This document shows, one piece after another, positions 3,208 through 61,671 of a stretch of DNA of 64,000 bases; within the stretch, counting starts at the first letter, position 1, and each line of letters begins with the position of its first letter. The stretch comes from a virus: positions 1 through 64,000 of the IMG/VR virus record IMGVR_UViG_3300042898_001429; one strand, written 5' to 3'. A program made the translations under genes and the position numbers. The notes beneath the pieces are model-generated. The model ran no database searches and had not been told where the DNA came from. It saw nothing but the letters and a program-made list of their open reading frames with translations.

Positions 3208-4644
3208 TCAAGAGTCTTCTGACAAATCTATAATGTCAGCGTAAAGAGAATCAGTCTGGGAACTGTCTAGCCCACCATTAGGAAGTTGGCGAGCCTGTTC
3301 GCCTGCCTTGGCTCCAAACAATCGGGACAGTACGCCACTTGAGCCACTTGCTTCTACTCTGAGACTAACCATCTCTCGGTTGTCTGAGATACTTCGCATC
3401 TTTTCCACAAGGGTAAATACTCTGTCCATTTCAGTGGAAAGTGCTGGGTCAAGACCCTGTCCTTCTAGTTCTTCAGCAAACCTAGCGAACATCACACGAC
3501 CTACTTGCATCTCCACAAGCGCCCTCATTGCGGCTGTCAACTGGTCTTTAGTCCTAATCTCAATCGGCAAAGAAAACGCACACTCACTATTTTCTTGAAA
3601 TGAGGGGCAACGTGAGGACAGATAGCAATTATTACACTGTCGTAAAGGGTTCGCATTGTACTTGAGAACAGGGGTTACTTCGGGGGCAATTTCAATAGAT
3701 TCCCCATGCCCATCAAGGCTTTGCGTGCCCATGGACGTGATGTTTTCAATGCCCATGACTGGTAGCAATACACGCTGTCCCTCGTGCCGCCTCTCAGGGG
3801 GGGTGGTAGCAATACTTGCACCCCCAGAAACCACTTTTCCACCACTAGGGGTAGGGGGGGTGATAGCAACTATGTCCTCATTTTCAGGGGTACCCAACTC
3901 TTGCTCATCGGTGTCGTCCATAGGGTCATAGCCTCCAAAAGTTTTAGTTTCCCATTGTCTCCATGACTCTATCGCAAGCATCCCAATAGCAGATACTTCG
4001 TCTTCCATAACGGCGTCTATGTCAATTCCAAGTCGGATAATATCCGCACGATGTTTCTTACGAGCAGACTCTTTTTGCTGGGCTGGGTACCTGCGTAGAC
4101 CATGCCCATCCCATACTTGTGTCTCCCCATATCGGATGACAGACGTCCATGAGACCACCACGACAGAGTCCCAAGGGACGCTTTCAATTAGGTCAGGCTT
4201 AGAGGTCATTCCAATCAACTGGGCACCCCATCGCTCCGCCAGTTGCTTTATGCGCTTCTGATTCTTAGGAGTAACGGCTTTATCAGAAATAGCAACTCTG
4301 CCATTCTTTTGACATAACCACGCCAAGCGCTCCATGTCATCAGGGTCATTCCAAATAGGAACATACTTATCCCCAAGCCAAGCACCATCGTAGTTAGGTT
4401 GCCCAATAACAATGCTTAGGTTGTCAGCATGCAGTCGGATAAAACTATCGTATTTAGCAATGTCTTCATCTGTCTCTGAAACGTATAGAAGGACTTCGCC
4501 ACCATTGAACATGGCGCTGAGGTCTTGGTCTTTCTTCTTTGGGATAGGAAGATGAGTCAGATTGATACCAAATCTGGTAACACCTGCTGACAACAGCATG
4601 TTTCGGTATGAGCCTTTCTCGGCTCCACCAAAGTATATTTTCAT
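3208..4644 (-). CDS. Uncharacterised large protein with C-terminal four-cysteine cluster
   Basis: A 478-residue protein I do not recognise with confidence. The N-terminal ~240 residues look like an alpha/beta enzyme domain starting MKIYFGGAEKGSYR, with alternating hydrophobic strands (LSIVIGQPN, VVVVSWTSV) and a closing WDGHGLRRYPAQ segment. The order of strands is reminiscent of TIM-barrel enzymes such as tRNA-guanine transglycosylase/DpdA-like proteins, but this is only a suspicion. A Pro/Thr/Glu-rich linker (about 250-330) leads to CNNCYLSSRCPSFQENSEC, a C-x2-C-x5-C-x7-C cluster likely to bind Zn or Fe-S. The ATG at 4644 overlaps the upstream stop (ATGA); an in-frame ATG lies 21 bases earlier. 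Confidence 0.75.
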   Translation of the reverse strand: MKIYFGGAEKGSYRNMLLSAGVTRFGINLTHLPIPKKKDQDLSAMFNGGEVLLYVSETDEDIAKYDSFIRLHADNLSIVIGQPNYDGAWLGDKYVPIWNDPDDMERLAWLCQKNGRVAISDKAVTPKNQKRIKQLAERWGAQLIGMTSKPDLIESVPWDSVVVVSWTSVIRYGETQVWDGHGLRRYPAQQKESARKKHRADIIRLGIDIDAVMEDEVSAIGMLAIESWRQWETKTFGGYDPMDDTDEQELGTPENEDIVAITPPTPSGGKVVSGGASIATTPPERRHEGQRVLLPVMGIENITSMGTQSLDGHGESIEIAPEVTPVLKYNANPLRQCNNCYLSSRCPSFQENSECAFSLPIEIRTKDQLTAAMRALVEMQVGRVMFARFAEELEGQGLDPALSTEMDRVFTLVEKMRSISDNREMVSLRVEASGSSGVLSRLFGAKAGEQARQLPNGGLDSSQTDSLYADIIDLSEDS

Positions 4645-4880
4645 TCCCAGCCGACTCTGCGCCACACAGAAGGTGAGTGGTTTTGCTCTATTAGGAGCCG
4701 TTCAAGGTCATCTGCGTACAAGCGAACCATGGAGAAGCAAGGCATTTCGCCGTTCTCGTCAGTCCAGTTATCTTCGTCTTCGGTGGTCGGAAACCCGTCA
4801 TGTTCCACGCACAATGGTGGTCCACAAAAGTTTTGCTCCAAACCAATCTGATACCACTCTTCAAATGTTAAGTCATCCAA
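4641..4880 (-). CDS. Small acidic hypothetical protein
   Basis: A 79-residue acidic protein with a CGPPLCVEHDG segment near residue 20 and a PCFSMVRLY segment near residue 48. The paired cysteines and histidine suggest a small metal site. Similar short proteins occur in actinophages, without known function. It overlaps both neighbours by a few bases and is coupled to the large uncharacterised protein downstream, so the two may work together. Confidence 0.75.
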   Translation of the reverse strand: MDDLTFEEWYQIGLEQNFCGPPLCVEHDGFPTTEDEDNWTDENGEMPCFSMVRLYADDLERLLIEQNHSPSVWRRVGWE

Positions 4881-5890: not shown

Positions 5891-6151
5891 TTACCTAGTT
5901 TTAAGAGACTGGTTGATAAATCGTTGGTCATTTGAAAGGTTTATTGCGGTTTCATCCCGACCTGTCATTGGGCTTATCATTCCCTTGTCACCAAAATCCC
6001 TGCGCTCACGGTACTCATCCAACATACCTTGTGCAATATCAGGGGTAGATTTGAATGCAGCATTAGACTGTCTTTTAGCAATCAGTTGCGCTAAACGTGG
6101 TGTAGCACGGTAGTTGTCACCAAGGCGACGTCCTCTGTGGTCTGTTCCCAT
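5891..6151 (-). CDS. Small paralog family A member (HRG...TPRL N-terminus), copy 1
   Basis: An 86-residue hydrophilic protein starting MGTDHRGRRLGDNYRATPRL. The same N-terminal signature (T-[DN]-HRG-x-x-x-G ... TP-x-L) opens the products at 8518-8949, 9179-9511 and 9511-9786. After about residue 30 the copies diverge. No hydrophobic core or catalytic motif is obvious; the protein looks largely disordered. The family has no function I can name; conserved heads with variable tails suggest a shared targeting or assembly signal (inference). Confidence 0.8.
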   Translation of the reverse strand: MGTDHRGRRLGDNYRATPRLAQLIAKRQSNAAFKSTPDIAQGMLDEYRERRDFGDKGMISPMTGRDETAINLSNDQRFINQSLKTR

Positions 6152-6160
6152 CAGTTGCTC

Positions 6161-6358
6161 CTAACGCAAGTGTGATTCGTAGTTCGGAAAGCCTTCGGCT
6201 GACTGAACGTTGTATTGAATTTGCAACTCTTCTTTACGAACGGTTGCAGAAGTTGGGTCAACCACACCACCACGGTCTGGGGTAAGACCCTTAAACTTGC
6301 CGTCGCCTGCGCCACGTACAAGGTCCATATTCATGGAACGAGATTCATTAACTGCCAT
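6161..6358 (-). CDS. Small hypothetical hydrophilic protein
   Basis: A 65-residue polar protein (starts MAVNESRSMNMDLV) rich in Gly, Asp and Arg, with no recognisable domain. It sits between the frameshift extension of the Ala/Pro/Lys-rich gene and family A copy 1. An AGGATTATAGT leader gives a modest ribosome-binding site. It may belong with the other small virion-associated-looking proteins of this block, but this is inference from position. Confidence 0.7.
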   Translation of the reverse strand: MAVNESRSMNMDLVRGAGDGKFKGLTPDRGGVVDPTSATVRKEELQIQYNVQSAEGFPNYESHLR

Positions 6359-6370
6359 ACTATAATCCTA

Positions 6371-6511
6371 TCATTTCTTTAGTTTTGATACTGGAACCCA
6401 TTGTTCCCCGACTTTTACATGCCGTTCAGATGTTCCTTCGGCATTTTTCATTACTTTAACCTCAAGCGGTGCTTTGGGAGCCTCTTTAGGAGACTCCTCT
6501 ACGCTTTTGGG
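6371..6511 (-). other. Candidate programmed -1 frameshift site and 46-residue extension
   Basis: The upstream gene ends GCC TCC CCA AAA GCG TAG. It holds the heptamer C CCA AAA (6511-6505) in the X XXY YYZ register. Seven bases further on, an 8-bp hairpin (one G-U pair, 5-base loop) spans 6497-6477. A -1 slip bypasses the TAG and reads 46 more residues (PKSVEESPKEAPKA ... GEQWVPVSKLKK) to a TGA at 6371-6373. The extension keeps the Pro/Lys/Ala-rich style at first, then becomes a compact basic tail. Alternatives are a homopolymer sequencing error, or a separate 26-residue gene starting at the ATG at 6451, which has GAGG 8 bases upstream. Confidence 0.55.
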
Positions 6512-7977
6512 GAGGCTTCCTTCTTTGCCGCTGGCTTCTTTGCAGGTTCCTTTTTAGCAGGAGCAGGCTTAGGAGCCGCTTCTTTCTTTGCAGGAGCCTC
6601 TGCCTTTGGAGCAGCCTCTTTTTTAGCGGGGGCTGCTTTAGCAGGTACAACGGCTTTAGCGGGTGCTGGAGCAGGTGCGGCTGGTGCAGGGGATGTAGGT
6701 GTTGTAGCAGCCGCTGGCTTTGCGGGAGCGGGCGCTGGAGCAGCCGCTTGAGCGGGGGCTGTCTGTTGCGCTTGTGGTCCTGCTGGGCTAGTTCCTGGCA
6801 TTGGGGTTATCTGTGGCTGAGCCGCTTGCGTACGAGCAGGGGTACCCGCTGGTGTAGCAGGGGTAGCCGTAGGTGCGGGGCGTGGTCTAGTTGGATTAGC
6901 AGGTGCACCACTTTGGCGAGGAGCCGCTGTAGGTGGAGTAGCAGGAGCCGCTGCTGGTGCAGCAGGTGGAGTTGTATTATTCGTAGTTGTAGTCGTTGTA
7001 GACGAAGGACCTGTTTGAGTCAAGTCATTGGTCTTTCCCTGTTGGGAAGTTACTTTATTACCTGAACCAACATTGGTGGCACCCGAAGGGTTTTGACCTT
7101 TTGGTGTGGCTCCCATAGCCATACCACCACGGCGACCACTAGACAGGTCAGCACCTGATAGGTCATAGTCACCATTTTGAGTTGTTGTGGCGGTGGCATC
7201 TGCTTTTCCACCAGTTCCACCTTTCCCTCCAGCACCGCCTGCGCCACCAGCACCGCCTGCGGCTGCTTTGGCTTGACGAGCAGTACGTTGGCGTTGAGCC
7301 GCAGGGCTGTCTGATACTTGACCAGCAACACGTCCACCTGTACGGGGACGCTTGATGGCAGGGGTACCTGCACCTCCAGCACCTCCAGGAGCGGCACCAC
7401 CAGCACCACCTTTACCAGCAGTGGCTGTTTGTGAGGACTGTGGACCAAATGTACGAGATGATGCGTCAACGTTTGTACTGTTGTCCTGTTGAGCGCCAGC
7501 ACCAAGGATGCTTCCGCCTGTTTGTACGTTTCCTGTTTCTACATTTCCAAACGTGATATTTACACGACGAGAGTTGTCAGAGTTATTAATGTCCATGTTG
7601 CTCTGGGTTCCACCACGGCGCATTGAACGGCTACTTGCTGGCTGTGTAATAGACTGCTGAGCGTTATTGCCTGCGCCACCCCATGCTTGGGAGATAGAAC
7701 TAGTGCTTCCTGCGACTGGTGCTGTGCCTGAACGACCCATGCTGTTGCCTGCACCATAATTTGTTTGCTGAGGGATGCCATAGTTTGGCTGTCCACCAAG
7801 GTTTGGTCCTTGACGTGGTCCCATTTGTGAACGTGGTTGACCAGTTGGTAGTTGACCTACTGGCGCTTGTGTGCCTAGTCCTGTGTTAAAACCAAACGAA
7901 CGCTGGCGAGCACCTTGCTGTTGCTGGTAATCAAACACTTGCTGTGCTTGCTGTTGGCGGTAATCATTAATAGCCAT
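6499..7977 (-). CDS. Disordered Gln/Gly/Ala/Pro/Lys-rich protein
   Basis: The 492-residue product has almost no hydrophobic core. Residues 1-60 are Gln-rich, the middle is Gly/Ala-rich (GGAGGAGGAGGKGG), followed by Thr and Pro/Ala tracts, and the last ~70 residues are Ala-Lys-Pro repeats (PAKKEAAPK) resembling histone H1-type tails. Such tails bind DNA or RNA non-specifically, so DNA compaction or a virion-internal role is possible, but nothing shows this directly. The low-complexity codon runs open spurious reading frames in other phases. The gene stops at TAG within a candidate -1 frameshift cassette. Confidence 0.8.
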   Translation of the reverse strand: MAINDYRQQQAQQVFDYQQQQGARQRSFGFNTGLGTQAPVGQLPTGQPRSQMGPRQGPNLGGQPNYGIPQQTNYGAGNSMGRSGTAPVAGSTSSISQAWGGAGNNAQQSITQPASSRSMRRGGTQSNMDINNSDNSRRVNITFGNVETGNVQTGGSILGAGAQQDNSTNVDASSRTFGPQSSQTATAGKGGAGGAAPGGAGGAGTPAIKRPRTGGRVAGQVSDSPAAQRQRTARQAKAAAGGAGGAGGAGGKGGTGGKADATATTTQNGDYDLSGADLSSGRRGGMAMGATPKGQNPSGATNVGSGNKVTSQQGKTNDLTQTGPSSTTTTTTNNTTPPAAPAAAPATPPTAAPRQSGAPANPTRPRPAPTATPATPAGTPARTQAAQPQITPMPGTSPAGPQAQQTAPAQAAAPAPAPAKPAAATTPTSPAPAAPAPAPAKAVVPAKAAPAKKEAAPKAEAPAKKEAAPKPAPAKKEPAKKPAAKKEASPKA

Positions 7978-8285
7978 TAACTTGATAATCCTTGCATTGA
8001 GTAGCGACTGGAACCTTCAAAATCATCTGCAATAAAACCATTGCGAATCATTACTGGTGCGCCAGAGACCCACGAACGATAAGTTGGCGCAAACCTATCT
8101 GTGTTTAGAACGTCCATAATTCCCATTTCTTGCTTGGCAAAGCCACGGCTCTGAGGCATCAACTGTTGTGGAACAACTGGACGAATAGCCTGAATAGTGT
8201 CGTGGTCGGAGATAGCGTTCTTCAACGCCATATCTACAAGCATCTCTGAGCGAGATTGCCATGGTTTATATGGAACTTGAATCAT
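7977..8285 (-). CDS. Hypothetical protein
   Basis: A 102-residue protein with a conserved-looking start (MIQVPYKPWQSRSEML), a helical segment around residues 15-35 and a C-terminal SWVSGAPVMIRNGF segment. No family recognised. It lies between the disordered protein and family B copy 1, with stop/start overlaps on both sides, so it is part of the same tightly coupled operon of small proteins. Confidence 0.7.
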   Translation of the reverse strand: MIQVPYKPWQSRSEMLVDMALKNAISDHDTIQAIRPVVPQQLMPQSRGFAKQEMGIMDVLNTDRFAPTYRSWVSGAPVMIRNGFIADDFEGSSRYSMQGLSS

Positions 8286-8518
8286 TATTTACAATCAGCG
8301 CAAAGACTAGAACTTGTAGGAGTTGATTCCCCACAGCCACCACATGAGTGCATTGCTGGACGAGGAATACCACCCGCAGGAGCGTCATCCTCGTTCATCT
8401 GTGGAAACCCTGTAGAAAGGTCACGAGCAAGTCGGGCATAAGCGCCACGACTTACTTGGCGACCTGGGTGATGTGCTTTGTCTTCGGCATAAGTGCCGTC
8501 GTCACGGTGTCCAGCCAT
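8285..8518 (-). CDS. Small paralog family B member with zinc knuckle, copy 1
   Basis: A 77-residue protein beginning MAGHRDDGTYAEDKAHHPGR, nearly identical over 25 residues to the start of the product at 8949-9179. Unlike that copy it ends in CGGCGESTPTSSSLCADC, a CxxC...CxxC zinc ribbon. The shared head with different tails parallels family A. Role unknown. Confidence 0.8.
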   Translation of the reverse strand: MAGHRDDGTYAEDKAHHPGRQVSRGAYARLARDLSTGFPQMNEDDAPAGGIPRPAMHSCGGCGESTPTSSSLCADCK

Positions 8519-8949
8519 TAGAATTCGTACTCCCCATCAATATCTTTGCGGTTTTTCAATGTTTTACCAATGTATGCGCCTGTGCCACCGCTTTGGCGGA
8601 CAACACGGTTGACTTCATGTGGATAGTTTGTGTTTGCTACGTTGGCTGACCATGCGTCATCTCGCCCGTCATCATATGGGGTATTGGAAATGCGACTCAT
8701 AACATCTTGTTCTTCTTTATAACCAATGTAACTAGGAAGATTGGTCATCACAGGTCCTGTTTCAACAGACCCACGTCCACGAAGAGGTGAACCTTGGCGA
8801 TGTGCTTTAATTACGTTAGATGCAAGACCTGCTGCATCATAAACACTAATATTAGTGTCTACACCAATTTGACGAGCAAGTGCTTGCTGAAGTCGTGGTG
8901 TAGGTCGGTGGTTGGTGCCCGTTGGACGCCCTCTGTGGTCAGTAGTCAT
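8518..8949 (-). CDS. Small paralog family A member, copy 2
   Basis: A 143-residue family A protein (MTTDHRGRPTGTNHRPTPRL). It is the longest of the four copies, with a polar, probably disordered tail rich in Asn, Asp, Arg and Gly. It is flanked on both sides by family B genes, giving an alternating B-A-B-A-A order. No catalytic residues are evident. Confidence 0.8.
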   Translation of the reverse strand: MTTDHRGRPTGTNHRPTPRLQQALARQIGVDTNISVYDAAGLASNVIKAHRQGSPLRGRGSVETGPVMTNLPSYIGYKEEQDVMSRISNTPYDDGRDDAWSANVANTNYPHEVNRVVRQSGGTGAYIGKTLKNRKDIDGEYEF

Positions 8950-9179
8950 TAGTAGTGTCCTTTCTTCAGACGCTCTTCTTTAAGTGTTTGTTCTTCCTGA
9001 ATGTCTTCAGGGTCCCAAGGGTCTAGTACTTCATCGGAGTTACCGACAAGACCTTTGACCATGTTGTTCATAGTCCAACCAGCAGGTGGTCCAGAAATGA
9101 AGTTTTCTCGGCTTACTTTGCGACCTTCGTGGTGCGCCTTGTCCTCTGCGAACGTTCCGTCGTCTCTATGTCCAGCCAT
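8949..9179 (-). CDS. Small paralog family B member, copy 2
   Basis: A 76-residue protein starting MAGHRDDGTFAEDKAHHEGR, matching copy 1 of family B in its first ~25 residues and then diverging. It lacks the zinc ribbon of copy 1 and ends in a Glu/Lys-rich helix. It overlaps both neighbours by single bases, as is typical of this operon. Confidence 0.8.
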   Translation of the reverse strand: MAGHRDDGTFAEDKAHHEGRKVSRENFISGPPAGWTMNNMVKGLVGNSDEVLDPWDPEDIQEEQTLKEERLKKGHY

Positions 9180-9511
9180 TAGTCTCTCCTAGCGTCATTT
9201 GAAATTTGGCGCTCGTAATAATCGCCGTGCTCTGTTTCTTCACCCATACTTGGTGAGCGGTCATTGTCCCATGCTGGGTCACTCAAACTGCTAGGTGTTT
9301 TAAAACCATCGTAGGGGTCAAGATACGGAGAGCCAAGTGCATCAGGATTACCACCATTTTTGGTAATCTCATCTGCGTAACCTCGGAAACGCTCTGAATC
9401 TTTTTCTTTTTGAGTCTTGTACTTATTCCAGTTTTGAAGTGGTGTAGGTTGGTGCCCACCATGTGACGTGGCAGGGTTACCTACTGGGTTGCCTCTGTGG
9501 TCAGTAGCCAT
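9179..9511 (-). CDS. Small paralog family A member, copy 3 (divergent)
   Basis: A 110-residue protein starting MATDHRGNPVGNPATSHGG and then QPTPLQNW, so it keeps the TDHRGxPxG and TPxL elements with an insertion between them. The remainder is very polar and Asp/Gly/Ser-rich. It is the most divergent family A copy. Function unknown. Confidence 0.78.
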   Translation of the reverse strand: MATDHRGNPVGNPATSHGGHQPTPLQNWNKYKTQKEKDSERFRGYADEITKNGGNPDALGSPYLDPYDGFKTPSSLSDPAWDNDRSPSMGEETEHGDYYERQISNDARRD

Positions 9512-9786
9512 TAGTAGCCGTTTCTTTCCATATAAAGAGCACTGTAAATTTGCTGTTCTTTGTCGGTAACTCCATGGTAAGTGCCTTTGCCATACTTGTC
9601 ACGCTCTTCACGGTAGGTATTAAGGTGCGCTTGTGCTTCACTAGGATGCACCTCTGGAGCATTCATATGTGACAGTGGACTTCCTCCACGGATGTCTTGT
9701 GTCATACGGCGAGCCATTACTTGTGCAAGACGTGGGGTGGCACGGTAGTTGTCACCAATTGGCATACCTCTGTGATTAGTACCCAT
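9511..9786 (-). CDS. Small paralog family A member, copy 4
   Basis: A 91-residue protein starting MGTNHRGMPIGDNYRATPRL, closest to copy 1 at 5891-6151: both share the HRG...GDNYRATPRLAQ head, and both have a YREERDK or YRERRDF segment about 45 residues later. The pair therefore looks like a more recent duplication than the other copies. Confidence 0.8.
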   Translation of the reverse strand: MGTNHRGMPIGDNYRATPRLAQVMARRMTQDIRGGSPLSHMNAPEVHPSEAQAHLNTYREERDKYGKGTYHGVTDKEQQIYSALYMERNGY

Positions 9787-9983
9787 TATTTATCTGTTTC
9801 TGGGGTCATGAACACATCGTCTGATTCCCACTCATTTTGTGCTGGGCGACGAGTTGTATCGTGAGGACCGACGGCTTCGTCGTACAATTCATCTTGTCCC
9901 CTTCCATAGGTAAGTGTTTCAACGAGGGAGCGACCATGTCGGCGGTCTCCACCATCTGAGGCTTTACGAACTACATAGGCCAT
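9786..9983 (-). CDS. Small hypothetical protein
   Basis: A 65-residue polar protein starting MAYVVRKASDGGDRRHGRS. The GDRRHGR element is loosely like the GHRDDG/DHRG heads of families A and B, but too short to claim homology. It opens the run of small paralogs and overlaps family A copy 4 at its stop. Confidence 0.7.
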   Translation of the reverse strand: MAYVVRKASDGGDRRHGRSLVETLTYGRGQDELYDEAVGPHDTTRRPAQNEWESDDVFMTPETDK

Positions 9984-9986
9984 TAT

Positions 9987-10475
9987 TTATCTCCAAGCAG
10001 GCATTAGGCTCTTAAAATAAGAGCGACGTTCAGGACTAATTGATACTGCTTGTTCATTGTCGGGGGTGGGAATACCACGTGGTCCAACTTTTCCATCATT
10101 TGTTAAACGAACTGGTTCTGCACCAGGAGGTGAGAACTTCTTTCCTTGTGATTCCAGCATGATGCCAGTCAAAGGGTTAAATTCAGCAGGCCAAACATAG
10201 TCACCAGGGTTTACACGTTCCCCTTTATGTACGCCTCTACTGTACTGACGAGCGTTAAGACGACTCATTGTTCCAAGTATTTTATCTTGGCGACGGTTAG
10301 ATGACATAGTGCCAAGGTAACCATCAGGGTGTGTGGTATCACCTTGAGAGCGGTAGCCAGAGATTAATTCATCTTTGCTAGAGCGCCATACGGGAGATGG
10401 ACCATACATGTTGTTAGGTACAGCACCAGGAGCCTCAGAAGGGTTACTCCATGCGGTAAATGTTTGCTGTGCCAT
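9987..10475 (-). CDS. Hypothetical protein
   Basis: A 162-residue hydrophilic protein rich in Ser, Pro, Gly and Arg. It contains PVWRSSKDELISGYRS and ends SPERRSYFKSLMPAW. No domain is recognised. It is coupled to the Arg/Gly-rich 46-residue protein upstream by a TAATG-type junction. It may be a virion-associated protein by company (inference). Confidence 0.7.
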   Translation of the reverse strand: MAQQTFTAWSNPSEAPGAVPNNMYGPSPVWRSSKDELISGYRSQGDTTHPDGYLGTMSSNRRQDKILGTMSRLNARQYSRGVHKGERVNPGDYVWPAEFNPLTGIMLESQGKKFSPPGAEPVRLTNDGKVGPRGIPTPDNEQAVSISPERRSYFKSLMPAWR

Positions 10476-10622: not shown

Positions 10623-10913
10623 CTACTTTACGATTGGCTTGAATGAGATAGCAGAGATTGTTTCGCCGCCCTCACCAATGATGTCATCAAATCCGATAAC
10701 AAAAGAGAGGTCAACGCCTCGTGGTGCTACAAAACCACGTGCAATAGCACAGGCTTTAGCCGCTTGGTTAACTGCTGATGCTCCAATGGCACGCATCTTT
10801 GGTAATTGGCCTGCGTTAATAGCACGGGCCATGATGGAGCCTACTGATTGTGGGTTACTAGAACCCGACACTTTGAGAACATCATCAATTGTGGTGGTCA
10901 AATCTTGCGACAT
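10623..10913 (-). CDS. spoVS: SpoVS-like protein
   Basis: The 96-residue product matches stage V sporulation protein S over its whole length: LKVSGSSNPQSVGSIMARAI, the strongly conserved AIGASAVNQAAKACAIARGF, and PRGVDLSFVIGF. SpoVS is an Alba-like small dimeric protein that affects sporulation and septation in Bacillus; homologs are spread in bacteria and phages and are probably nucleic-acid binding. AGGAG lies about 6 bases before the ATG. Its task in the phage is unknown; interference with host division or a nucleoid role is possible (inference). Confidence 0.88.
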   Translation of the reverse strand: MSQDLTTTIDDVLKVSGSSNPQSVGSIMARAINAGQLPKMRAIGASAVNQAAKACAIARGFVAPRGVDLSFVIGFDDIIGEGGETISAISFKPIVK

Positions 10914-19694: not shown

Positions 19695-21251
19695 TTATAC
19701 CTCTGAGTGGCTTAGGAACTCGGATAGTGTACCAAGGTTCAGGTCAAATTTACCCTGGCTGTCATACCCCTTGTCAATAAACGCTTTATTAATTTCTCGT
19801 TTTTGTTGGAGCATCTCGTATTGACGTTCTTCAATAGAACCCTTCATTACGAATGATACGACTGTAACATGCGGGTGTACCGACGATAGTCGGATAATGC
19901 GGGCTTCTCTTTGGTCCAGTTTTCCAGCAGACCAAGGTAAATCGTAAGAGATAAGGTAATTGGCTTGTGGTAAGTCCACCCCGTAACCTCCCGCATCAGA
20001 GGATAAAAAGAGCCGAACGCCATCCTCGGTTGCGAACTTTTGCTTTGCAGCATCTCTCTGGTCTGCACCCATACCACCCATGAAGAGTACGCTCTCCGTA
20101 AGTCCCTTAGTTGCTTCCTGGATAATCCGTAGGTTTTTCTTAAAGAACGAGAATAAAACAACTTTGTTAGTTGGGTCTTCATTTAATACATCCTCAATGT
20201 AATTGACAACTGTGTCTAGTTTGGGTGTCTTATAGGTCTCGGGGAGCCATCCTTCCGAAAGGATTCGGGAGGCGTATGCACTTCCCTCAGTGTTTTGAGT
20301 AGGGTCGTCAAACGCTTTGGCTGACTCCACCACCAACCTAGGATTATCGCAGAGCATACGTAATACAGTAAGCCTAGACATAATTTGACCTTGTGCTTCA
20401 TTTCCTTGTCCCCCGTGATAGTGCGACCAAAGGTCAAATGACCTTCCATGACTTGTTATTGCTTTTTGAATTTCGGCTAAGAGGTCAGCCGCAATACGTT
20501 CGTATACACCAGCAGTGCCGTTGTCAAACTGAACAGGGATTACTTGCGTAATGACTTCAGGAAGTTGGTCCTTGATGTCATCTCGTGTCTTACGAACCAT
20601 TGCTTCTGACATTGAGTCATTGAGTTGTTTTAAGTTACGGTATCTGGTTGGTTTACCAAAGTGGTCACGAACAATAAAAGTTCTGTCAAACACATCAAAC
20701 TTACCTAATACTGAATTATCTACAAATTGCATAATTGAAAACAGTTCTTCTGGTTTATTTTCAATTGGTTGACCTGTTAATGCAAAACGATAGTGACACT
20801 TAGCCCCTAGTTTTTTAAGCATCTTAGAACGCTTAGAAGTAAATGACTTGATGATTGTGGCTTCATCTATGACCATGGCGTTAAAACGCATGGCTTCCCA
20901 TTGTGCCAAGTCTTTAGTAAGGCTTTCAGGATTAACAATAATATACTGACAACCTATGGACAGTCTCCATAGTTTCTCACGTTGCTTAGGGTTTCCGTCA
21001 ATAACAATTGCTCTAGATGTAGTGAACTTGTTTATCTCCCGAAGCCATTGGTACTTGAGACTGCTTGGAACAACTACACATACTTTACTAATCTCGTTGT
21101 CATCAATTAAAGATTCAATAGTAGAAAGTGTTGTAGGAGTTTTACCAGCACCCATAACCATGGCAAGAAGCATCTGCCCCCGCTCTACCATCCGCTCACT
21201 TGCTTCTTGTTGAAAAGGGTAGAGAGTTCCTATGAAGGTCACAGAACCCAT
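19695..21251 (-). CDS. SNF2-family (superfamily 2) helicase/translocase
   Basis: The 518-residue protein has the SF2 motif set: Q-like YPFQQEAS, motif I MVMGAGKTPTT, Ia VVVPSSLKYQWLRE, II VIDEATII (DEAT box), III ALTGQPIEN, then domain 2 with KVVLFSFFKKNL, SSDAGGYGVDLPQA and motif VI REARIIRL. SNF2-type phage enzymes move on double-stranded DNA and aid replication, recombination or transcription. The last residues lie over the start of the primase gene by 13 bases. Confidence 0.92.
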   Translation of the reverse strand: MGSVTFIGTLYPFQQEASERMVERGQMLLAMVMGAGKTPTTLSTIESLIDDNEISKVCVVVPSSLKYQWLREINKFTTSRAIVIDGNPKQREKLWRLSIGCQYIIVNPESLTKDLAQWEAMRFNAMVIDEATIIKSFTSKRSKMLKKLGAKCHYRFALTGQPIENKPEELFSIMQFVDNSVLGKFDVFDRTFIVRDHFGKPTRYRNLKQLNDSMSEAMVRKTRDDIKDQLPEVITQVIPVQFDNGTAGVYERIAADLLAEIQKAITSHGRSFDLWSHYHGGQGNEAQGQIMSRLTVLRMLCDNPRLVVESAKAFDDPTQNTEGSAYASRILSEGWLPETYKTPKLDTVVNYIEDVLNEDPTNKVVLFSFFKKNLRIIQEATKGLTESVLFMGGMGADQRDAAKQKFATEDGVRLFLSSDAGGYGVDLPQANYLISYDLPWSAGKLDQREARIIRLSSVHPHVTVVSFVMKGSIEERQYEMLQQKREINKAFIDKGYDSQGKFDLNLGTLSEFLSHSEV

Positions 21252-47491: not shown

Positions 47492-49180
47492 TTAGTTATC
47501 TTCGTCAGGATTACGACGCTGGGCGAACCTTGCACCGTAAGCCTTACTTACAATTTTATTTACGAGTTCCCCTTCAACGGCGCTTGCGGCACCGACTCCA
47601 GGAAGTGGCGAGGATGAATTCCCCGTCGTAGATACATTAGCACCTCCAGCAGAGGCTGGCTCAACACCACCACCGTCTGAAATCATGCCTGTAGCCAACA
47701 TAATTGCTTGCTGAATTTGAGCACGCATCATGTCCAAAGCGCCTTGGTCAATGGCATCGTCTTGAAGTTCTTCAAAGATTTCTGCCATCTTTTCATTGGG
47801 GAATTCTTCACCAAGAATACGCAAAGCGCCACGCTTAGATTCCAAACCAAGTTGCATCTTGGCTTGAACTTCGTTGAGTTTAATAAGTTGGTCAACGGGA
47901 AGAGGCTCAGGCCAATGAACCGTTGTTTGATAGGTTGTTGGGTCAAGAGGGTCCAATTGAGTCAATTGGTCAATCTCAGGCTGGGACGTCTTTGATGGGT
48001 CGTACACCAACATTTGTGGTTCAAAAACAGCCGCAGTACGAATGATGATTTCGTTAACACGCTCAAGACCCTTGGTAAAGTGAATCTTCTTCATGTTGAA
48101 ACGGTTCATCATTGGCTGGTACTGGATAGCCAATGCCACACCAGAGGTGTTAGAAATTGGTTGCATTTGACCAAGAGCAGTTTCAGGCACACCAGTAATC
48201 TCATGCATAGTGCGCTTAATTACTTGGATGTATTCCAAGGCACCAGACATCTCACCACGAGATTCAAGGTTGAATACGTTGGCATCTTTTGGAAGTCCAG
48301 CCCAAACCTTCTTAGGTCCACGCTCTAATTGAGAAGCCTTAGCACCAGTAATGATTGTTACAGGAGCGGCGTGGTAGTTGATGATGTCAGAAACTTCAAC
48401 CATCTTCTCATTGAGTTCACGGTTAAGAGGAATGATGTCCCAGATATCTGACTGACCCCATGGAGAAGAAGAGATAGTGACGTTAGGAATATGCACAACT
48501 GGAATTGTTCCCAAAGCATTGGGGTATTCGTCAATTAGTTCATCGTTGATGAACTGTTGTACAAGGTCATCAGAAAGGATTTCAGTAAAGGTATAAACCT
48601 GACGAGTTCCTTCAGGAGATGTACCCCAGAAGCGATACTTTAACTTAAAGCGAAGAAGTCGGTCACGGTCATGTGGGTGATACTCAGGGAAACAATGTGC
48701 TGGGTTCAACGGGATAACACGGATGCGACCAGTGTGGGGAATACCTACAGAGTCTGTGTACGGTTCTTCATAAGCAATCTTTACGAAGCAGTCGCCAGTA
48801 ACAGATGCCAACTGACCCATTTCCCACATAACATAATGCTTACTGTTGTGGATATCCCACACTTCATGCAAAAGGCTTGGGATGATAGCGCCATTTTGTT
48901 CAGGGCAACGAAACTGGACACTCTTACCAAAACAAAAGTTGGTGATGTAATCCGACATCGTGCGGGTGTAGTTCATGTAGAACTGTGATTCACCCATTTC
49001 ACGGCGATAAGACCAATGGTGACCAAGGTACCAAGCCCACGCAGATGCGTAACGGTTTAAGCGAGGACCATGTACTTCAAACTCTTCGTCAGCAAGTTCC
49101 ACCAAACCAAGTGGGGAAATCGCAACGGTGAGGTCGCTAGAAGACGCTCTATATGATGGGGACCAAAAATCAACTGCCAT
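47492..49180 (-). CDS. Portal protein (SPP1 gp6-like)
   Basis: A 562-residue portal. It has NRYASAWAWYLGHHWSYRREMGESQFYMNYTRTMSDYITNFCFGKSVQF, the typical portal wing start; the central VHIPNVTISSSPWGQSDIWDIIPLNRELNEKMVEVSDIINYHAAPVTIITGAKAS; and EITGVPETALGQMQPISNTSGVALAIQYQPMM. It forms the dodecameric ring through which DNA is packaged. It is followed by scaffold and capsid genes. Confidence 0.93.
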   Translation of the reverse strand: MAVDFWSPSYRASSSDLTVAISPLGLVELADEEFEVHGPRLNRYASAWAWYLGHHWSYRREMGESQFYMNYTRTMSDYITNFCFGKSVQFRCPEQNGAIIPSLLHEVWDIHNSKHYVMWEMGQLASVTGDCFVKIAYEEPYTDSVGIPHTGRIRVIPLNPAHCFPEYHPHDRDRLLRFKLKYRFWGTSPEGTRQVYTFTEILSDDLVQQFINDELIDEYPNALGTIPVVHIPNVTISSSPWGQSDIWDIIPLNRELNEKMVEVSDIINYHAAPVTIITGAKASQLERGPKKVWAGLPKDANVFNLESRGEMSGALEYIQVIKRTMHEITGVPETALGQMQPISNTSGVALAIQYQPMMNRFNMKKIHFTKGLERVNEIIIRTAAVFEPQMLVYDPSKTSQPEIDQLTQLDPLDPTTYQTTVHWPEPLPVDQLIKLNEVQAKMQLGLESKRGALRILGEEFPNEKMAEIFEELQDDAIDQGALDMMRAQIQQAIMLATGMISDGGGVEPASAGGANVSTTGNSSSPLPGVGAASAVEGELVNKIVSKAYGARFAQRRNPDEDN

Positions 49181-51551: not shown

Positions 51552-52301
51552 TCAACGACCCCTCCGACGAATATCTACAGCACGAGGGTTGCCACGACGT
51601 GGATGACCCATTTCTTTCCAAGAAAGCCATGTAGCGGCTTGTAGTTGGTTAGGAAGAAGCCCTGCTTTGTTTGCGGCGGCACGACCAGCATCAGCAAAAG
51701 TGTTGTAACGCCCCATAGCACCCAAACCTCTGTCTGCTGTCTGCCAAGGCATCTTTAAACCAGCACTTGAGTCTGCGTCATGTGTATCTGAAACATATGC
51801 CTCTTCATCAAGAGGATTTATAATAGTTTTAGTAAAATTATAAGTTTTTAAGTCTTTTGGAAGAACATCACTCCAATGTTCTCCTTCAGCAATCCGTGTT
51901 GCGGCTTCAACTTGTGCACCCGTAGCCTTACCTAACGGCACACCCGTTTTAAAGAATTGGTCAGCACTACGTACATTTTGAGTCCATTCAGTACCACGAC
52001 TACTAAGTGCGCCAATCACACCAGCAGCCTTTTCAACATCAGGGTGAATTGCCTGTGCGATACGGTGAGCGGTTGGGTACCAATTCATACCACGTTCTAC
52101 TTGGTCAGAGGTTGCTATACGTAAAGCATTTCTCTTGTTGTGAACCATATTGCCAAACTGACCAGTTGACATACGCATGTCTTCAGGAACCGTCGTGTCA
52201 GAAGAGGCTTGACGAATGGGGATTTTGTCTGTCCCAGGTTGGCGTTCAACAAAGCGAAAGCCTTTGTCTTTAAGGTACTGGGGGTACTCTACATCTCCCA
52301 T
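51552..52301 (-). CDS. Hypothetical actinophage protein (DUF7178-like)
   Basis: A 249-residue protein with HNKRNALRIATSDQVERGMNWYPTAHRIAQAIHPDVEKAAGVIGALSSRGTEWTQNVRSADQFF in the middle and AGLLPNQLQAATWLSWKE near the end. It resembles DUF7178-type proteins of actinophages, but the functional role is unknown. The WYPTAH and ALSSRGTEW segments look like conserved motifs of a helical domain. It is located next to terminase genes, so a head or packaging role is possible. Confidence 0.65.
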   Translation of the reverse strand: MGDVEYPQYLKDKGFRFVERQPGTDKIPIRQASSDTTVPEDMRMSTGQFGNMVHNKRNALRIATSDQVERGMNWYPTAHRIAQAIHPDVEKAAGVIGALSSRGTEWTQNVRSADQFFKTGVPLGKATGAQVEAATRIAEGEHWSDVLPKDLKTYNFTKTIINPLDEEAYVSDTHDADSSAGLKMPWQTADRGLGAMGRYNTFADAGRAAANKAGLLPNQLQAATWLSWKEMGHPRRGNPRAVDIRRRGR

Positions 52302-52303
52302 AT

Positions 52304-52837
52304 TTACCCTTGAGAGTATCGGAGTTGGCGCTTAGCGGATGTCTCTGCATTTCCACGGTTGTCTTGGCGATAAGCCTCTTTACCAGCACCACGGAACTTG
52401 CCAGCGCTTTCACGACGCTTGTGCTCATCCGCACCATTACCTATGTCGGTAGACCGACGTGCTTCTTTAAAGGTTTGTGGCTTAAAATCATCCATAGGGT
52501 CAGTGAATACTTCACCAGTACCCTCCATGGTCTTTTGTTTGAATGTCTGTGCCTGTGAACCACGGCGTTGTGGGACGTATTTATTACGCATGCCGCTATC
52601 TTCATAACTTGGTGTAGCACGTGCCGCATGGAAAGAAGACCTACGAGAACGACCAACGTCAAATTTATAAGTACCTAATGCACCTGCGTACACAGGAGAA
52701 ATAGGTAGACCAGAGACGGTTGAAGTAATAGAAGGTAAACCTACCTTCTGTACGTCTTGTTCTCCGCTATCTCCAGTGGTAGGGGCACCACTATCTCCCG
52801 TGACAGGGGCACCACTTGATGGAGCGCCCGCTTCCAC
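52304..52837 (-). CDS. Hypothetical disordered protein near terminase
   Basis: A 177-residue hydrophilic protein (starts as GTG EAGAPSSGAPVTGDSG), Ser/Gly/Thr-rich at its start and Arg/Lys-rich afterwards. It looks disordered and may be virion-internal or a terminase helper; no motif supports a function. It abuts its neighbours with short gaps. Confidence 0.65.
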   Translation of the reverse strand: MEAGAPSSGAPVTGDSGAPTTGDSGEQDVQKVGLPSITSTVSGLPISPVYAGALGTYKFDVGRSRRSSFHAARATPSYEDSGMRNKYVPQRRGSQAQTFKQKTMEGTGEVFTDPMDDFKPQTFKEARRSTDIGNGADEHKRRESAGKFRGAGKEAYRQDNRGNAETSAKRQLRYSQG

Positions 52838-57915: not shown

Positions 57916-58050
57916 TTATTCGGCTGGTCGTACCAGTGGTGCAGGTGGTTCTTCTTCGTGTTCCCACAGGATTAGTTCATCGCCAGCGACAGCCCACCCA
58001 TCCTCAAAACCAGCATCTTTTAGTAATTGGCAAACTTCTTCGTGGCTCAT
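57916..58050 (-). CDS. 44-residue acidic protein in fibre operon
   Basis: MSHEEVCQLLKDAGFEDGWAVAGDELILWEHEEEPPAPLVRP has the look of a short conserved phage protein found near tail-fibre genes. The ATG overlaps the preceding fibre stop (ATGA). It is small, acidic, with a WAV...LW core. Function unknown. Confidence 0.65.
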   Translation of the reverse strand: MSHEEVCQLLKDAGFEDGWAVAGDELILWEHEEEPPAPLVRPAE

Positions 58051-58631
58051 CCCGCAATCTCCATTAATGTAATTTGAGAAAGAATATTTGACTGCTGAAC
58101 AACAACTCCTGCTCCGCCTGCGTTATTTGCAAATACGGTTTTGTATGTTAAAGCAGAGGTGCTGGATGGGGAATCAAGATAGTTAGAAGAAATAGAAAAA
58201 TACATCTGCATTGCGGTATTTGTAAAACCAACATAAAGAATATTTTGTAAAATGTTTACACCATTTCTATGTATTTGCATCAAGATGCCGTTACCTGCAC
58301 TATCTGCGCTTTTCCAACTATTGGGATGACTTATCAAAATTAGAATTTTACTTGATGTTGATTTGGGGGTAATTGTTGCTGACAACCCTGTGTCTACATA
58401 AGTGCTTGAGTTGTTGGTTGTTGTAGTTGAATTTGTCCCAACTACGGTTTGCAACACAGTGCCGTTGGTTGGAGTGGTAGCCGAAATATACCGCCATGCT
58501 GTGCCATTCCAAACACCAAGCATGTCTGTGTCGGTTTCGTAAATCATTTGACCCTCATACGGGGCTGTAGGGCGACTTGAAGATAGACATACGCCAGGGC
58601 GTAACCCAGTTGAATTATTACTAATAGACAT
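58047..58631 (-). CDS. Tail fibre-associated protein
   Basis: A 194-residue protein. Its N-terminal module (SSRPTAPYEGQMIYETDTDMLGVWNGTAWRYIS) is shared with the protein at 58634-59341. It is the common phage-fibre module with a YE-x-DTD turn and NG-x-AW. The C-terminal part is a beta-rich domain ending LSQITLMEIAG. It is likely a fibre or baseplate-attached receptor-binding protein. Confidence 0.78.
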   Translation of the reverse strand: MSISNNSTGLRPGVCLSSSRPTAPYEGQMIYETDTDMLGVWNGTAWRYISATTPTNGTVLQTVVGTNSTTTTNNSSTYVDTGLSATITPKSTSSKILILISHPNSWKSADSAGNGILMQIHRNGVNILQNILYVGFTNTAMQMYFSISSNYLDSPSSTSALTYKTVFANNAGGAGVVVQQSNILSQITLMEIAG

Positions 58632-58633
58632 TA

Positions 58634-59341
58634 TTAACCAATCCTCACTGGTGTTATATATAAACGCCTATTCCAAAAATACGCTGTGGTTCCAGCATTA
58701 GAAACTGCGTATTGAAGTTTGATTGTTGAACCAGAAGCAAGAGAAGTTCTACGGATAGTGGCTACATGGTTCCCATTTATTTGCCCACCTCCATAAACTT
58801 GTGAATCTCCCAAATCCCAACCAAGCGATGTTGAATCTCCAGTCACCCAAATACGAGCATTGGTAGAAGTATTTGTTGTCTCGGCAATAAAATTATATGT
58901 GCAGTCCCAATCCCCTGCAAACGGAGTTACAAAAGACGGACCAACAGTTGAAAGGTCCGCAAAGGTTAATGATGTCGTAGTTTGGCGTGTACCAAAATAA
59001 TTATTAGGACCAACATAAGAGAAGTTTGGTGGACCACCAATAAATTCCCATTTGTATGCAGACGTAGAAGCAGAACGATAACGGAAACGCCACACTACAC
59101 CATTCGTTGAGTCAGCAACATAATCAATAATCTGACCATCAACAGGGCTAGAAGGAAGAGACGTTACGAGTGTTGATGTTCCTGGCATTACCCATGCTGA
59201 ACCGTTGTAGACAAGAACACGGTCAGTGTCTTTTTCGTACAACATTTGACCTTCAAAAGGTGATGCAGGTCGTGTAGCAGCCGAATCAACCACCCCTGGT
59301 TTGATTAGCGATGAACTACCGATTTGACTTGTGATAGGCAT
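58634..59341 (-). CDS. Tail fibre protein
   Basis: A 235-residue protein with the module SAATRPASPFEGQMLYEKDTDRVLVYNGSAWVMPG near the N-terminus, followed by TLVTSLPSSPVDGQIIDYVADSTNGVVWRFRYRS and a beta-sandwich-like C-terminal part. The start MPITSQIGSSSLIKPG parallels the start of the protein ending at 59499 (MPISSALGSSALLPAG), so they share an attachment peptide. It probably belongs to the receptor-binding assembly. Confidence 0.78.
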   Translation of the reverse strand: MPITSQIGSSSLIKPGVVDSAATRPASPFEGQMLYEKDTDRVLVYNGSAWVMPGTSTLVTSLPSSPVDGQIIDYVADSTNGVVWRFRYRSASTSAYKWEFIGGPPNFSYVGPNNYFGTRQTTTSLTFADLSTVGPSFVTPFAGDWDCTYNFIAETTNTSTNARIWVTGDSTSLGWDLGDSQVYGGGQINGNHVATIRRTSLASGSTIKLQYAVSNAGTTAYFWNRRLYITPVRIG

Positions 59342-59499
59342 TAGTTCCCCTCCCGTTCTTCTGCCGTGTTACCTTCAGCAACCCATATGAGATACGCCTG
59401 ATAGTCCGTGTTGGCAGGGTCGTTCGGAATCATCGCAGAATCAGAAATTCTAAAAATTGATTTATTTTTGCTATATGGGTTTGAAATAAGTTTATACAT
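59341..59499 (-). CDS. 52-residue small fibre-operon protein
   Basis: MYKLISNPYSKNKSIFRISDSAMIPNDPANTDYQAYLIWVAEGNTAEEREGN. The DPAN-x-D...Y..WxAEGNT segment is shared with the 72-residue protein at 61452-61670. Both follow fibre genes, so they may be accessory or chaperone-type small proteins of the fibres. It overlaps its neighbours by single bases. Confidence 0.65.
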   Translation of the reverse strand: MYKLISNPYSKNKSIFRISDSAMIPNDPANTDYQAYLIWVAEGNTAEEREGN

Positions 59500-60614
59500 T
59501 ACAATTCCGCCGATGCAGCCCAGTGTCCCCTAATACTGACCGCCACATAATTAGCCCCAACTCCGAAAAACATCATTCCTCCACTTGCACCAGCCCAATC
59601 GCCAGTCCAGTTGTAAGAAGAGTTTGTATCTCCTACGCCACTTCTGTTGTAGGTAAAATTATTAGCAACACCAGCAGTTGACCAAACATTTAAAGTGGGA
59701 GTTACTCTTTTGAGCACTTTAAACTGTATGTGAACAAGTGCATTGCCATACAAGTCGCTAACGGTTCCGACAAAAAGACTTCCAGGATTAGACGAAGCCC
59801 CAGGAGCAACATCGTAATTATAAGATTTTTCGTAGTACCGTTGGCACAGGGCTAGTTCTACACCGATAGGGCGTTGTTCAAACGGGGTTGGCTGGTAGTT
59901 CTGTTCCAACTGCACACCAGTCAAATAAAAAGTTGAGTTTGCAATGGTAGCCAAGTTGACCGAATCGCTAGTTGCGTAATGGTAAGAACTCAATGCCCCC
60001 CATGAATCCAAGTTAGTATTTCCAATACGGTCAGCGTGAGAACCAAGCGAGAAGGACATACTTAACCCAGCACCTGTTGCTTTTTCCCAAACACCACTGG
60101 ACACAGCCGTTGCCATATCTATCGTTATGGTTTTGTATTCCCAAGTGTTTGCCGAGTTGATTGTGTATGTTTTTAATAGGCTTCTAGTAGAAGCACCATT
60201 GGTAAACCAGATACTATATTTTCCTGCTGTTGACGACCTAACCCAAAAAGACAAAGAACATGTTTTCCCATAAAGGGCAGAAGCATTATATCCTTCTATA
60301 GTTTGATTAACGAATTGGTTTCCACCAGAAGAAAATGTTAAAGGCGTGGCACCGTTAGCCCATTTGTAAGCATTGGTAAATCCAGTTGGGACAACCGTTG
60401 TTTCATTGCTGACAGTTGGATTTGTACCTGCTGACCATGTGTAGTCTTGGGTTCTCCACCTATCTGCACCGTAATAGTATGTACCACCACCAGTACCAAA
60501 AGAAAACGAAGTACCCCGTTGTGCAACTTTCATATCTCCATTGGTGATTACATTACGAAATCCCAACCCCGCTGGGAGTAGCGCAGAAGAACCGAGAGCA
60601 GAAGAAATAGGCAT
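59499..60614 (-). CDS. Tail fibre protein with QRG/ADRW receptor-type domain
   Basis: A 371-residue protein. It starts MPISSALGSSALLPAG, then FRNVITNGDMKVAQRGTSFSF with a YGADRW turn, and ends with TGVQLEQNYQPTPFEQRPIGVELALCQRYYEKSY, a set of motifs common in fibre receptor domains. The same set recurs in the protein at 61672-62766. The ATG at 60614 overlaps the upstream stop (TAATG); a longer in-frame start has little support. It probably binds carbohydrates. Confidence 0.8.
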   Translation of the reverse strand: MPISSALGSSALLPAGLGFRNVITNGDMKVAQRGTSFSFGTGGGTYYYGADRWRTQDYTWSAGTNPTVSNETTVVPTGFTNAYKWANGATPLTFSSGGNQFVNQTIEGYNASALYGKTCSLSFWVRSSTAGKYSIWFTNGASTRSLLKTYTINSANTWEYKTITIDMATAVSSGVWEKATGAGLSMSFSLGSHADRIGNTNLDSWGALSSYHYATSDSVNLATIANSTFYLTGVQLEQNYQPTPFEQRPIGVELALCQRYYEKSYNYDVAPGASSNPGSLFVGTVSDLYGNALVHIQFKVLKRVTPTLNVWSTAGVANNFTYNRSGVGDTNSSYNWTGDWAGASGGMMFFGVGANYVAVSIRGHWAASAEL

Positions 60615-60964
60615 TAGGCTGTTTGTTTCGTCCATCCAACGACAGTCACATTGACCTTTGCGCCAGTATCTGATAATCCCTGAATAGTCTCTCCAGCATT
60701 CAGGACAATACCCGTATCCAAGATGATTGTGTCAAATCCAGCAATAGGAAGAAGAGAGACAAAACGATTAGCAAGAGTAGCGGCTGAACCAATCGCCAGA
60801 GAAAGAACACGGTCTTGGGTGTCTGTATTGCACATGATTACTTGCTTGACAATATACTGGTATCCAGAGGGAACTGTGGCAACAACAGTTGTAGTGGTTC
60901 CCAATTGAGTACTCGCCACACCTGAGTCATTTAGTCTTGCTTCGTTGCGGTCACCGACAGCCAT
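60614..60964 (-). CDS. Beta-rich fibre-attached module protein
   Basis: A 116-residue beta protein (VVATVPSGYQYIVKQVIMCNT ... VVLNAGETIQGLSDTGAKVNVTVVGW). The same fold and motif order (IKQ-hh-hxNT, then LDTGxxLNxG..I) occurs in the products at 60964-61452 and in the N-terminal part of the product at 62766-63851. It may be a small tail or baseplate decoration. Confidence 0.72.
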   Translation of the reverse strand: MAVGDRNEARLNDSGVASTQLGTTTTVVATVPSGYQYIVKQVIMCNTDTQDRVLSLAIGSAATLANRFVSLLPIAGFDTIILDTGIVLNAGETIQGLSDTGAKVNVTVVGWTKQTA

Positions 60965-61452
60965 TACATCATCTCCATTAACATTATTGCACCTGCTTGG
61001 TTATTAGACAAAAAGGCGTTAGGTCCTAGTTTTGCGGCGGTTATATTACTATCTGCAATTTTAGCAGTAGTTACAGCGGAATCCGCTAACCCTGAAACTA
61101 CCATACCGCCAGCGTTCTCTACGCCTGAGATGGTTACGTTAATAGTAGAACTAGCGCTAGACTTGGCTGAGATAAAATCACCCGAAGTCATTACCTGTGA
61201 TACATCCAATAATACTGTTTCATTAGCCGCTAATGACAAAGAGTTAAATAAACGGTTGGCTGTGCCAGCAGTTTGTGTAACGGGTACCAAAGAGATGCTA
61301 ATAGTGGCAGTTGCAGAAGCGCTTGTGTTGGTTACTACAAACTGTTTAATCATTGTTGTAGTGGTTTGGGCGGTAGGGCACGTATACAGGTTTGTCTCAG
61401 TGTTAGCCGTAAGGACGGCTGGTCCTGATAGTCGTTTTTCTGTAAAAGCCAT
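60964..61452 (-). CDS. Beta-rich module protein with alpha-helical tail
   Basis: A 162-residue protein with the recurrent module (YTCPTAQTTTTMIKQFVVTNTSA ... VLLDVSQVMTSGDFISAKSSASSTINVTISGVENAGG) followed by TTAKIADSNITAAKLGPNAF, a fibre shaft-type trimerisation signal. It should be a short fibre or a connector between fibres. Paralogous to both neighbours. Confidence 0.72.
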   Translation of the reverse strand: MAFTEKRLSGPAVLTANTETNLYTCPTAQTTTTMIKQFVVTNTSASATATISISLVPVTQTAGTANRLFNSLSLAANETVLLDVSQVMTSGDFISAKSSASSTINVTISGVENAGGMVVSGLADSAVTTAKIADSNITAAKLGPNAFLSNNQAGAIMLMEMM

Positions 61453-61670
61453 TACTGTTCCTCGCTCGCAAATCGTTCTTCATATGGTTCAGGCGTGTTG
61501 CCTTCTGCAAGCCACAACTCATACTCAACAAAATCAGCATTTGCAGGGTCGGGTGGAATAGAAGAAACTGTACCGTCATCGTTTATTCGTTCAATGTAAC
61601 GAGCAAGTGCTGGGATATTAGGTGGACACCACGGATACTGTGTCAAATCGCCTTCAATATATGTAGCCAT
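61452..61670 (-). CDS. Small fibre-operon protein
   Basis: A 72-residue protein (MATYIEGDLTQYPWCPPNIPALARYIERINDDGTVSSIPPDPANADFVEYELWLAEGNTPEPYEE...). The DPAN-x-D...W-x-AEGNTP segment is the one seen at 59341-59499. Short proteins with this ending accompany fibre genes in many phages. Function not established. Confidence 0.68.
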   Translation of the reverse strand: MATYIEGDLTQYPWCPPNIPALARYIERINDDGTVSSIPPDPANADFVEYELWLAEGNTPEPYEERFASEEQ

Positions 61671-61671
61671 T

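Follow-up and report, generated by a model that had tools for sequence, protein, structure and literature searches.

Two exchangeable N-terminal peptides precede many small proteins in a fixed genomic slot of metagenomic phages

Why would a phage carry a row of small genes whose products begin with one of two conserved peptides and then continue in different ways? The question is raised by the first 64 kb of the 94.5-kb virus record IMGVR_UViG_3300042898_001429, the stretch analyzed here and referred to as the window. The phage is contractile-tailed, with identified terminase, portal, scaffold, capsid, sheath, and baseplate genes, and nearly all genes lie on the minus strand. A sequence-only reading of this DNA had claimed six small genes, four whose products start with one peptide (head A) and two with another (head B), in the order A, B, A, B, A, A by ascending coordinate, and had likened them to modular cargo with a shared tag. 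All six open reading frames were found there on the minus strand and in that order, which in the direction of transcription reads A1, A2, B1, A3, B2, three other genes, and A4. As shown below, it is well supported that A and B are true modules, short N-terminal peptides placed before many small tails, and they occupy a fixed genomic slot of hypervariable content.

Head A opens A1 (9511-9786, 91 amino acids, MGTNHRGMPIGDNYRA), A3 (8518-8949, 143 amino acids, MTTDHRGRPTGTNHR), and A4 (5891-6151, 86 amino acids, MGTDHRGRRLGDNYRA), all with a PRL-type tail that in A1 and A4 reads PRL...YRxxRD, and an insert-bearing version of it opens A2 (9179-9511, 110 amino acids, MATDHRGNPVGNPATSHGGHQPTP), whose unrelated tail is acidic. 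Head B opens B1 (8949-9179, 76 amino acids, MAGHRDDGTFAEDKAHHEGRKVSR, tail ending in DEVLDPWDPEDIQEEQTLKEERLKKGHY) and B2 (8285-8518, 77 amino acids, MAGHRDDGTYAEDKAHHPGRQVSR), where it is followed by the motif DDAPAGGIPRP and a putative zinc ribbon. Each assignment rests on the open reading frame and a head hidden Markov model (HMM), supplemented by tail alignment for A3 and A4, by motif comparison for B2, and for A1 by the homology of its tail to B-headed proteins of other phages. The zinc ribbon predicted for the end of one B copy corresponds to a CxxC...CxxC pattern in B2; B2 itself has no Pfam match, and one of 120 tagged proteins matches the zinc-ribbon family PF18912 at 6e-4. When the A head HMM was run on all six frames of the window, the four A copies were recovered with independent E-values from 5e-11 (A1) to 2e-9, so that their resemblance is not a matter of chance. 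With the generic B model the two B copies reached poorer values (0.001 and 0.014), as they carry a longer variant, MAGHRDDGTxAEDKAHHxGRxVSR. Searches with the head HMMs over the six frames of the window and over the other 30 kb of this virus gave no further credible copy, and none on the window's own structural proteins.

To place these genes among relatives, IMG/VR was scanned with the neighboring conserved protein gp48 (the names gp48, gp47, and gp45 follow phage BRock). The scan gave 185 confirmed relatives, from which 80 loci were taken and 67 remained after removal of redundancy; all relatives bearing heads are metagenomic, and genes were called with a simple purpose-written caller, so the counts may shift slightly. 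At an independent E-value below 0.01, the head models found at least 126 distinct B-headed proteins in 57 loci and 61 A-headed proteins in 39 loci, the alignment starting at residue 1 in 132 of 140 cases for B and 68 of 73 for A. The general forms are M-[AP]-[RKN]-G-x-[DN]-[TE]-x-x-[HN]-[HP]-x-R-[KRQ]-V-x-R for B and M-x-x-[DN]-H-R-[GM]-x-x-[IV]-x-x-[NP]-[HY] for A, with a conserved length of about 14-17 residues, or up to about 22 for A if the NHRPTP part is counted; the inserted head of the A2 type recurs in loci L031/L040, L045, L053, and L060. Complete gp48-gp47-gp45 cassettes contained at least one tagged gene in 45 of 46 cases and both kinds in 29 (mean 3.7, maximum 7). Whole-record searches of 20 related contigs placed nearly all head copies inside or just before the cassette. 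Profile searches of phage metagenomes thus recovered both heads across related loci, and the motifs, rather than being absent from other phages of the group, are widespread in it. One protein (L068, 1829-2248) has a possible hybrid head, MITHRGQYDDDRSHHESGRKG, combining the HRG of A with the SHHxxGRK of B. In the comparison of head segments A and B were bridged by a single weak pair, and we make no claim that they descend from one ancestor.

The modular arrangement was also apparent when no head model was used. Residue segments of cassette proteins were compared, counting only pairs with unrelated remainders, and 2774 such pairs were similar in their first 20 residues, against 17 in the last 20, 6 in residues 31-50, and 5 when the first 20 residues were shuffled. 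The sole large head cluster comprised 193 proteins from 57 loci, 174 of them with A or B heads, and spanned 84 tail clusters; 51 tail clusters were counted among 121 B-headed proteins and 31 among 55 A-headed ones. Heads are also exchanged on the same tail. In six tail clusters A- and B-headed proteins occur together, most clearly as L090|4937 (B) and L096|11714 (A), whose tails are 71% identical over 99 amino acids (E 9e-50), and the alignment of the PRL...YRxxRD tail, which includes A1, A3, and A4 of the window, has A and B heads on one and the same domain. Shorter motifs (DDAPAxGIPRP, YDEAVGPxDxxRRP, and HPTGPTT) likewise recur behind different heads. On average the tails are slightly acidic.

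These results also correct where the head was thought to end. The conserved heads of the earlier description stand, but the "TPRL" counted as part of head A begins the shared tail domain of A1, A3, and A4, since the PRL...YRxxRD...R domain is carried behind B heads in other phages. Tail divergence accordingly applies to A2 and not to A1, A3, and A4, which have this domain in common. For that part of the window family simple paralogy is adequate, and the whole array might be put down to genes that were simply duplicated and then diverged, more slowly in their heads than in their tails. We consider this very improbable as a general account, because heads are swapped: unrelated heads sit on the same tail, 84 tail clusters fall within one head cluster, and the head peptide is kept while synonymous sites are saturated.

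The codons point the same way. The heads of B1 and B2 agree at 21 of 24 residues, yet 11 of those 21 codons differ; those of A1 and A4 have 18 of 23 residues in common, with 7 of 18 codons different, indicating conservation of the peptide and not fresh duplication of DNA. Over all pairs, codon identity at conserved head residues was 44% for B and 46% for A, against 41% and 43% expected if codons were drawn at random according to their usage. With codon use this close to random, the conservation of the heads is explained neither by duplication in the recent past nor by scars of recombination or signals at the RNA level; selection acts on the head peptide. That the conserved 5' ends are instead nucleotide elements serving translation start, coupling, or recombination, the peptide likeness being a by-product, might be argued from the tight coupling of the genes, 199 of 625 neighbor pairs having a 1-nt overlap. 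It is scarcely credible, as the codons of conserved residues differ as much as random choice predicts and untagged genes of the same operons are coupled likewise without a head. Taken as a pattern, then, the modular cargo with a shared tag that had been proposed is borne out by peptide-level selection, N-terminal position, the many tails per head, and head swaps on one tail.

The 67 loci share a layout in which gp48 is followed by small genes that vary from locus to locus, gp47 by one or two low-complexity genes of larger size, and gp45 by a second variable slot. The window follows it, with all genes on the minus strand. The gp48-like protein (9987-10475, 162 amino acids) forms the upstream border of the tagged array. 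It is followed by an untagged cassette protein (9786-9983, 65 amino acids) with the YDEAVGPxDxxRRP motif, which elsewhere is seen behind A and B heads. The five genes A1 to B2 are then chained by 1-nt stop/start overlaps (9786-9511, 9511-9179, 9179-8949, 8949-8518, and 8518-8285), and the chain extends into the gp47-like gene (7977-8285, 102 amino acids) and a gene for a low-complexity P/A/G/K-rich protein of 492 amino acids (6499-7977) that varies among relatives. The latter has a conserved start, then a long low-complexity stretch, and AKK repeats at its end; its counterparts keep the position but not the sequence. After the gp45-like gene (6161-6358, 65 amino acids) comes the second tagged slot, holding A4. 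In one sub-lineage (L099, 15230-16450) the slot after gp45 is instead occupied by DUF6496, DUF6321, and ferritin/Dps-like genes (Pfam 3e-11, 4e-25, and 3e-16). Promoter and terminator scans yielded no more sites than in shuffled sequence, and early or late timing could not be read from them.

The six head-carrying genes are flanked by a RusA/SpoVS pair and a DpdA-like gene. The SpoVS-like protein (10623-10913; PF04232, 7e-20) is encoded just ahead of the cassette and is kept in BRock-group phages and freshwater relatives. The DpdA-like or queuine tRNA-ribosyltransferase-like gene (3208-4665) matches phrog_887 at 5e-36, has no Pfam match, and is kept shortly after the tagged cassette; its similarity suggests 7-deazaguanine DNA modification. 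At the other end of the window (58047-63851) lies a series of tail-fiber-like paralogs with recurring starts such as GFRNIVINGGFDIWQRGTS and GFRNVITNGDMKVAQRGTS.

Isolated phages offer a comparison. The window portal (47492-49180, minus strand) shares about 52% identity with its counterparts in the Streptomyces phages BRock, GiJojo, pSt2308, LuckySocke, and Alone3, which also have gp48-, gp47-, and gp45-like proteins with a SpoVS gene ahead of the block, as here; unlike here, their gp48-gp47-gp45 block is without any A- or B-headed gene. Chromosomal contigs L114-L119, from Actinomadura, Terracoccus, Nonomuraea, Streptomyces, and Saccharothrix, also hold blocks from gp48 to gp45 with SpoVS, Cas4-like, and recombinase-like neighbors; these are probably prophages of the BRock kind, even though descriptions of BRock call it virulent. 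Together with WhiB-like neighbors recognized by eye, the chromosomal blocks point to Actinobacteria as hosts of the tagged phages. Among cultured freshwater Actinobacteria, 'Ca. Planktophila' has already served for the isolation of other phages (PMC10202952).

The statement that no described family fits the tagged proteins holds against the collections searched. At 1e-3, none of 120 tagged proteins matched PHROGs, the zinc ribbon was their single Pfam match, and scans of the window's own tagged proteins against both gave no family. No relative of A or B was found by tblastn among phage isolates (50,697 phage records), and PDB profile searches with the PRL-type tail family and gp48 had no match.

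What might the heads do? We tentatively propose, with somewhat less than even confidence, that they act as addresses by which variable cargo is brought into the prohead, in the manner of a capsid-targeting system, given that a short N-terminal peptide, many exchangeable tails, and a fixed slot are combined here as in T4 and P1. In T4, a capsid-targeting sequence (CTS) of about 10 N-terminal residues encapsidates almost any protein (PMC7697877), and the variable internal proteins are injected, three of them each blocking one type IV restriction subtype (PMC12373910). In P1 DarB, the first 30 residues suffice for capsid targeting (PMC9024508). Like T4 IPI-III and Alt, the tagged proteins are small, variable, several per phage, different among relatives, and possessed of a common short N-terminal peptide on otherwise different proteins, as in the T4 CTS proteins. 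They show no sequence similarity to the T4 internal protein and Alt families in PHROGs or Pfam, have two unrelated tags, form one operon-like array, and come without a detected S78-type protease; since no sequence relation and no protease of this type was found and there are two tags, we place the system outside the T4 family. The likeness to P1 Dar is one of analogy only, in that a packaging signal, here a proposed one, stands at the N-terminus of a protein that is otherwise unrelated. Dar cargo is few and large, whereas here there are many small proteins, and no homology was found: tagged proteins had no Dar match in PHROGs, and a weak DarB-like PHROG match in the window falls on a helicase (19695-21251) and on no other protein.

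On this proposal the head peptides would bind a component of head assembly (scaffold, portal, or capsid interior). The small tagged proteins would in this way become part of the prohead and enter the host together with the DNA, the route taken by T4 internal proteins and P1 DarB. Gene neighborhood and analogy lead us to the step from tag to prohead, and a further step to counter-defense would be a guess, namely that the delivered tails block host defenses or reprogram the host. The DpdA-like DNA-modification gene adjoins the array, and in T4 the internal proteins shield a phage whose DNA is modified from restriction.

The gene neighborhood in question emerged from a scan with the B alignment, which detected copies outside the cassette. 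The terminase gene of L129, L132, and L142 is followed, two genes on, by a B-headed gene, at the place where the window has genes for a 177-residue disordered-looking protein (52304-52837) and a DUF7178 protein (51552-52301; PF23802, 1e-33), between terminase and portal. In L124/L128, L145/L147, and L150, B-headed genes stand just ahead of portal and scaffold, directly upstream of the orthologs of the window portal gene. Heads of these out-of-cassette genes score from 2e-11 to 5e-7, the genes represent about four separate lineages, and the terminase-side proteins have a tail motif in common with cassette proteins (E about 1e-4). The earlier suggestion of a capsid-loading signal is supported to this extent, by B genes in terminase-portal-scaffold clusters and by the T4 and P1 analogy; packaging, partner, and processing go beyond that evidence.

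Several observations weigh against prohead loading. The array is outside the structural block in the window and most relatives, and the BRock group has the same portal family yet is untagged. Two tags for one destination exceed the needs of a simple loading signal, and packaging is here argued from neighborhood and analogy. No recognized counter-defense or enzymatic domain was found in the tails of the 120 tagged proteins with PHROGs and Pfam. A search of the record for an S78-type prohead protease gave no match while its controls were positive, leaving T4-style tag removal without a visible enzyme; an S77 (T4 gp21) search also gave no match, but there the controls were silent too, and no protease was recognized among the head genes examined. 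A literature search for the virion proteome of a related phage found none.

The location of the array would fit the main rival explanation, in which the heads dock inside the infected cell, on a target such as host RNA polymerase, the ribosome, the nucleoid, a defense protein, or a gp48/gp47/gp45 complex, and the array is a host-takeover or counter-defense set. In the window and most relatives the array is set apart from the structural genes, with recombination genes on one side and the DpdA-like gene on the other; every complete cassette is bordered by gp48, gp47, and gp45; and hypervariable arrays of small proteins are typical of host-interaction regions. The B-headed genes in the terminase-portal-scaffold clusters argue the other way, and one 68-kb record with such genes, which may be a fragment, has no gp48 homolog, which tells against gp48 as the receptor. 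We regard docking as possible, if rather unlikely.

The tails bear on a further alternative, that the tagged proteins are minor structural or DNA-condensing peptides in which head and tail form one element and no cargo is delivered. Many tails do look disordered or motif-like, DDAPAxGIPRP and YDEAVGPxDxxRRP recurring behind different heads, and the same operon encodes the lysine/proline-rich low-complexity protein. However, large tail turnover among close relatives and whole-gene gain and loss are unusual for structural parts, and the mean slight acidity of the tails is also unfavorable, so that we think this improbable.

The two heads may have company. A second island in L155 (G009:C1:16500-21500, minus strand, 450-2333) contains one B-headed gene and several genes with the N-terminal motif [HS]-[LI]-[NS]-x-x-Q, for example MPAHEHINQEQL, MAAHESINWDQH, and MPAQEHLSGQL, with weak Pfam matches to a GNAT acetyltransferase (0.001) and a ParB N-terminal domain (0.05). 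Similar starts (MSASNHLNKDQH and MSASDHLNGDQH) occur in the L032/L035 cassettes, and these are possibly a third head family. The ParB part of the ParB-like protein bearing this start relates to Mycobacterium cluster C phages, in which it is without the head.

A variable set of small proteins, each with one of the two tags over its first 15 to 25 residues, is thus carried by a common freshwater group of phages. With caution, as a possibility we hold with distinctly limited confidence, the two unrelated, interchangeable N-terminal tags may amount to a cargo-loading system of widespread freshwater actinophages, in which tens of small proteins are swapped and carried in the virion and the first 15 residues predict a virion-delivered effector. 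The working principle that we consider most likely is already known; a different partner would make the system categorically new, and one partner recognized by two exchangeable tags on so many proteins would be an informative hub should the destination differ. If the heads are loading signals, small phage proteins that now have no annotation (0 of 120 in PHROGs) would become a class of probable virion-delivered effectors that can be found by their first residues, and a head might be used to bring foreign proteins into the capsid of another phage. The hosts are probably abundant freshwater Actinobacteria, and new counter-defense or takeover proteins could then be sought in their phages from sequence alone.
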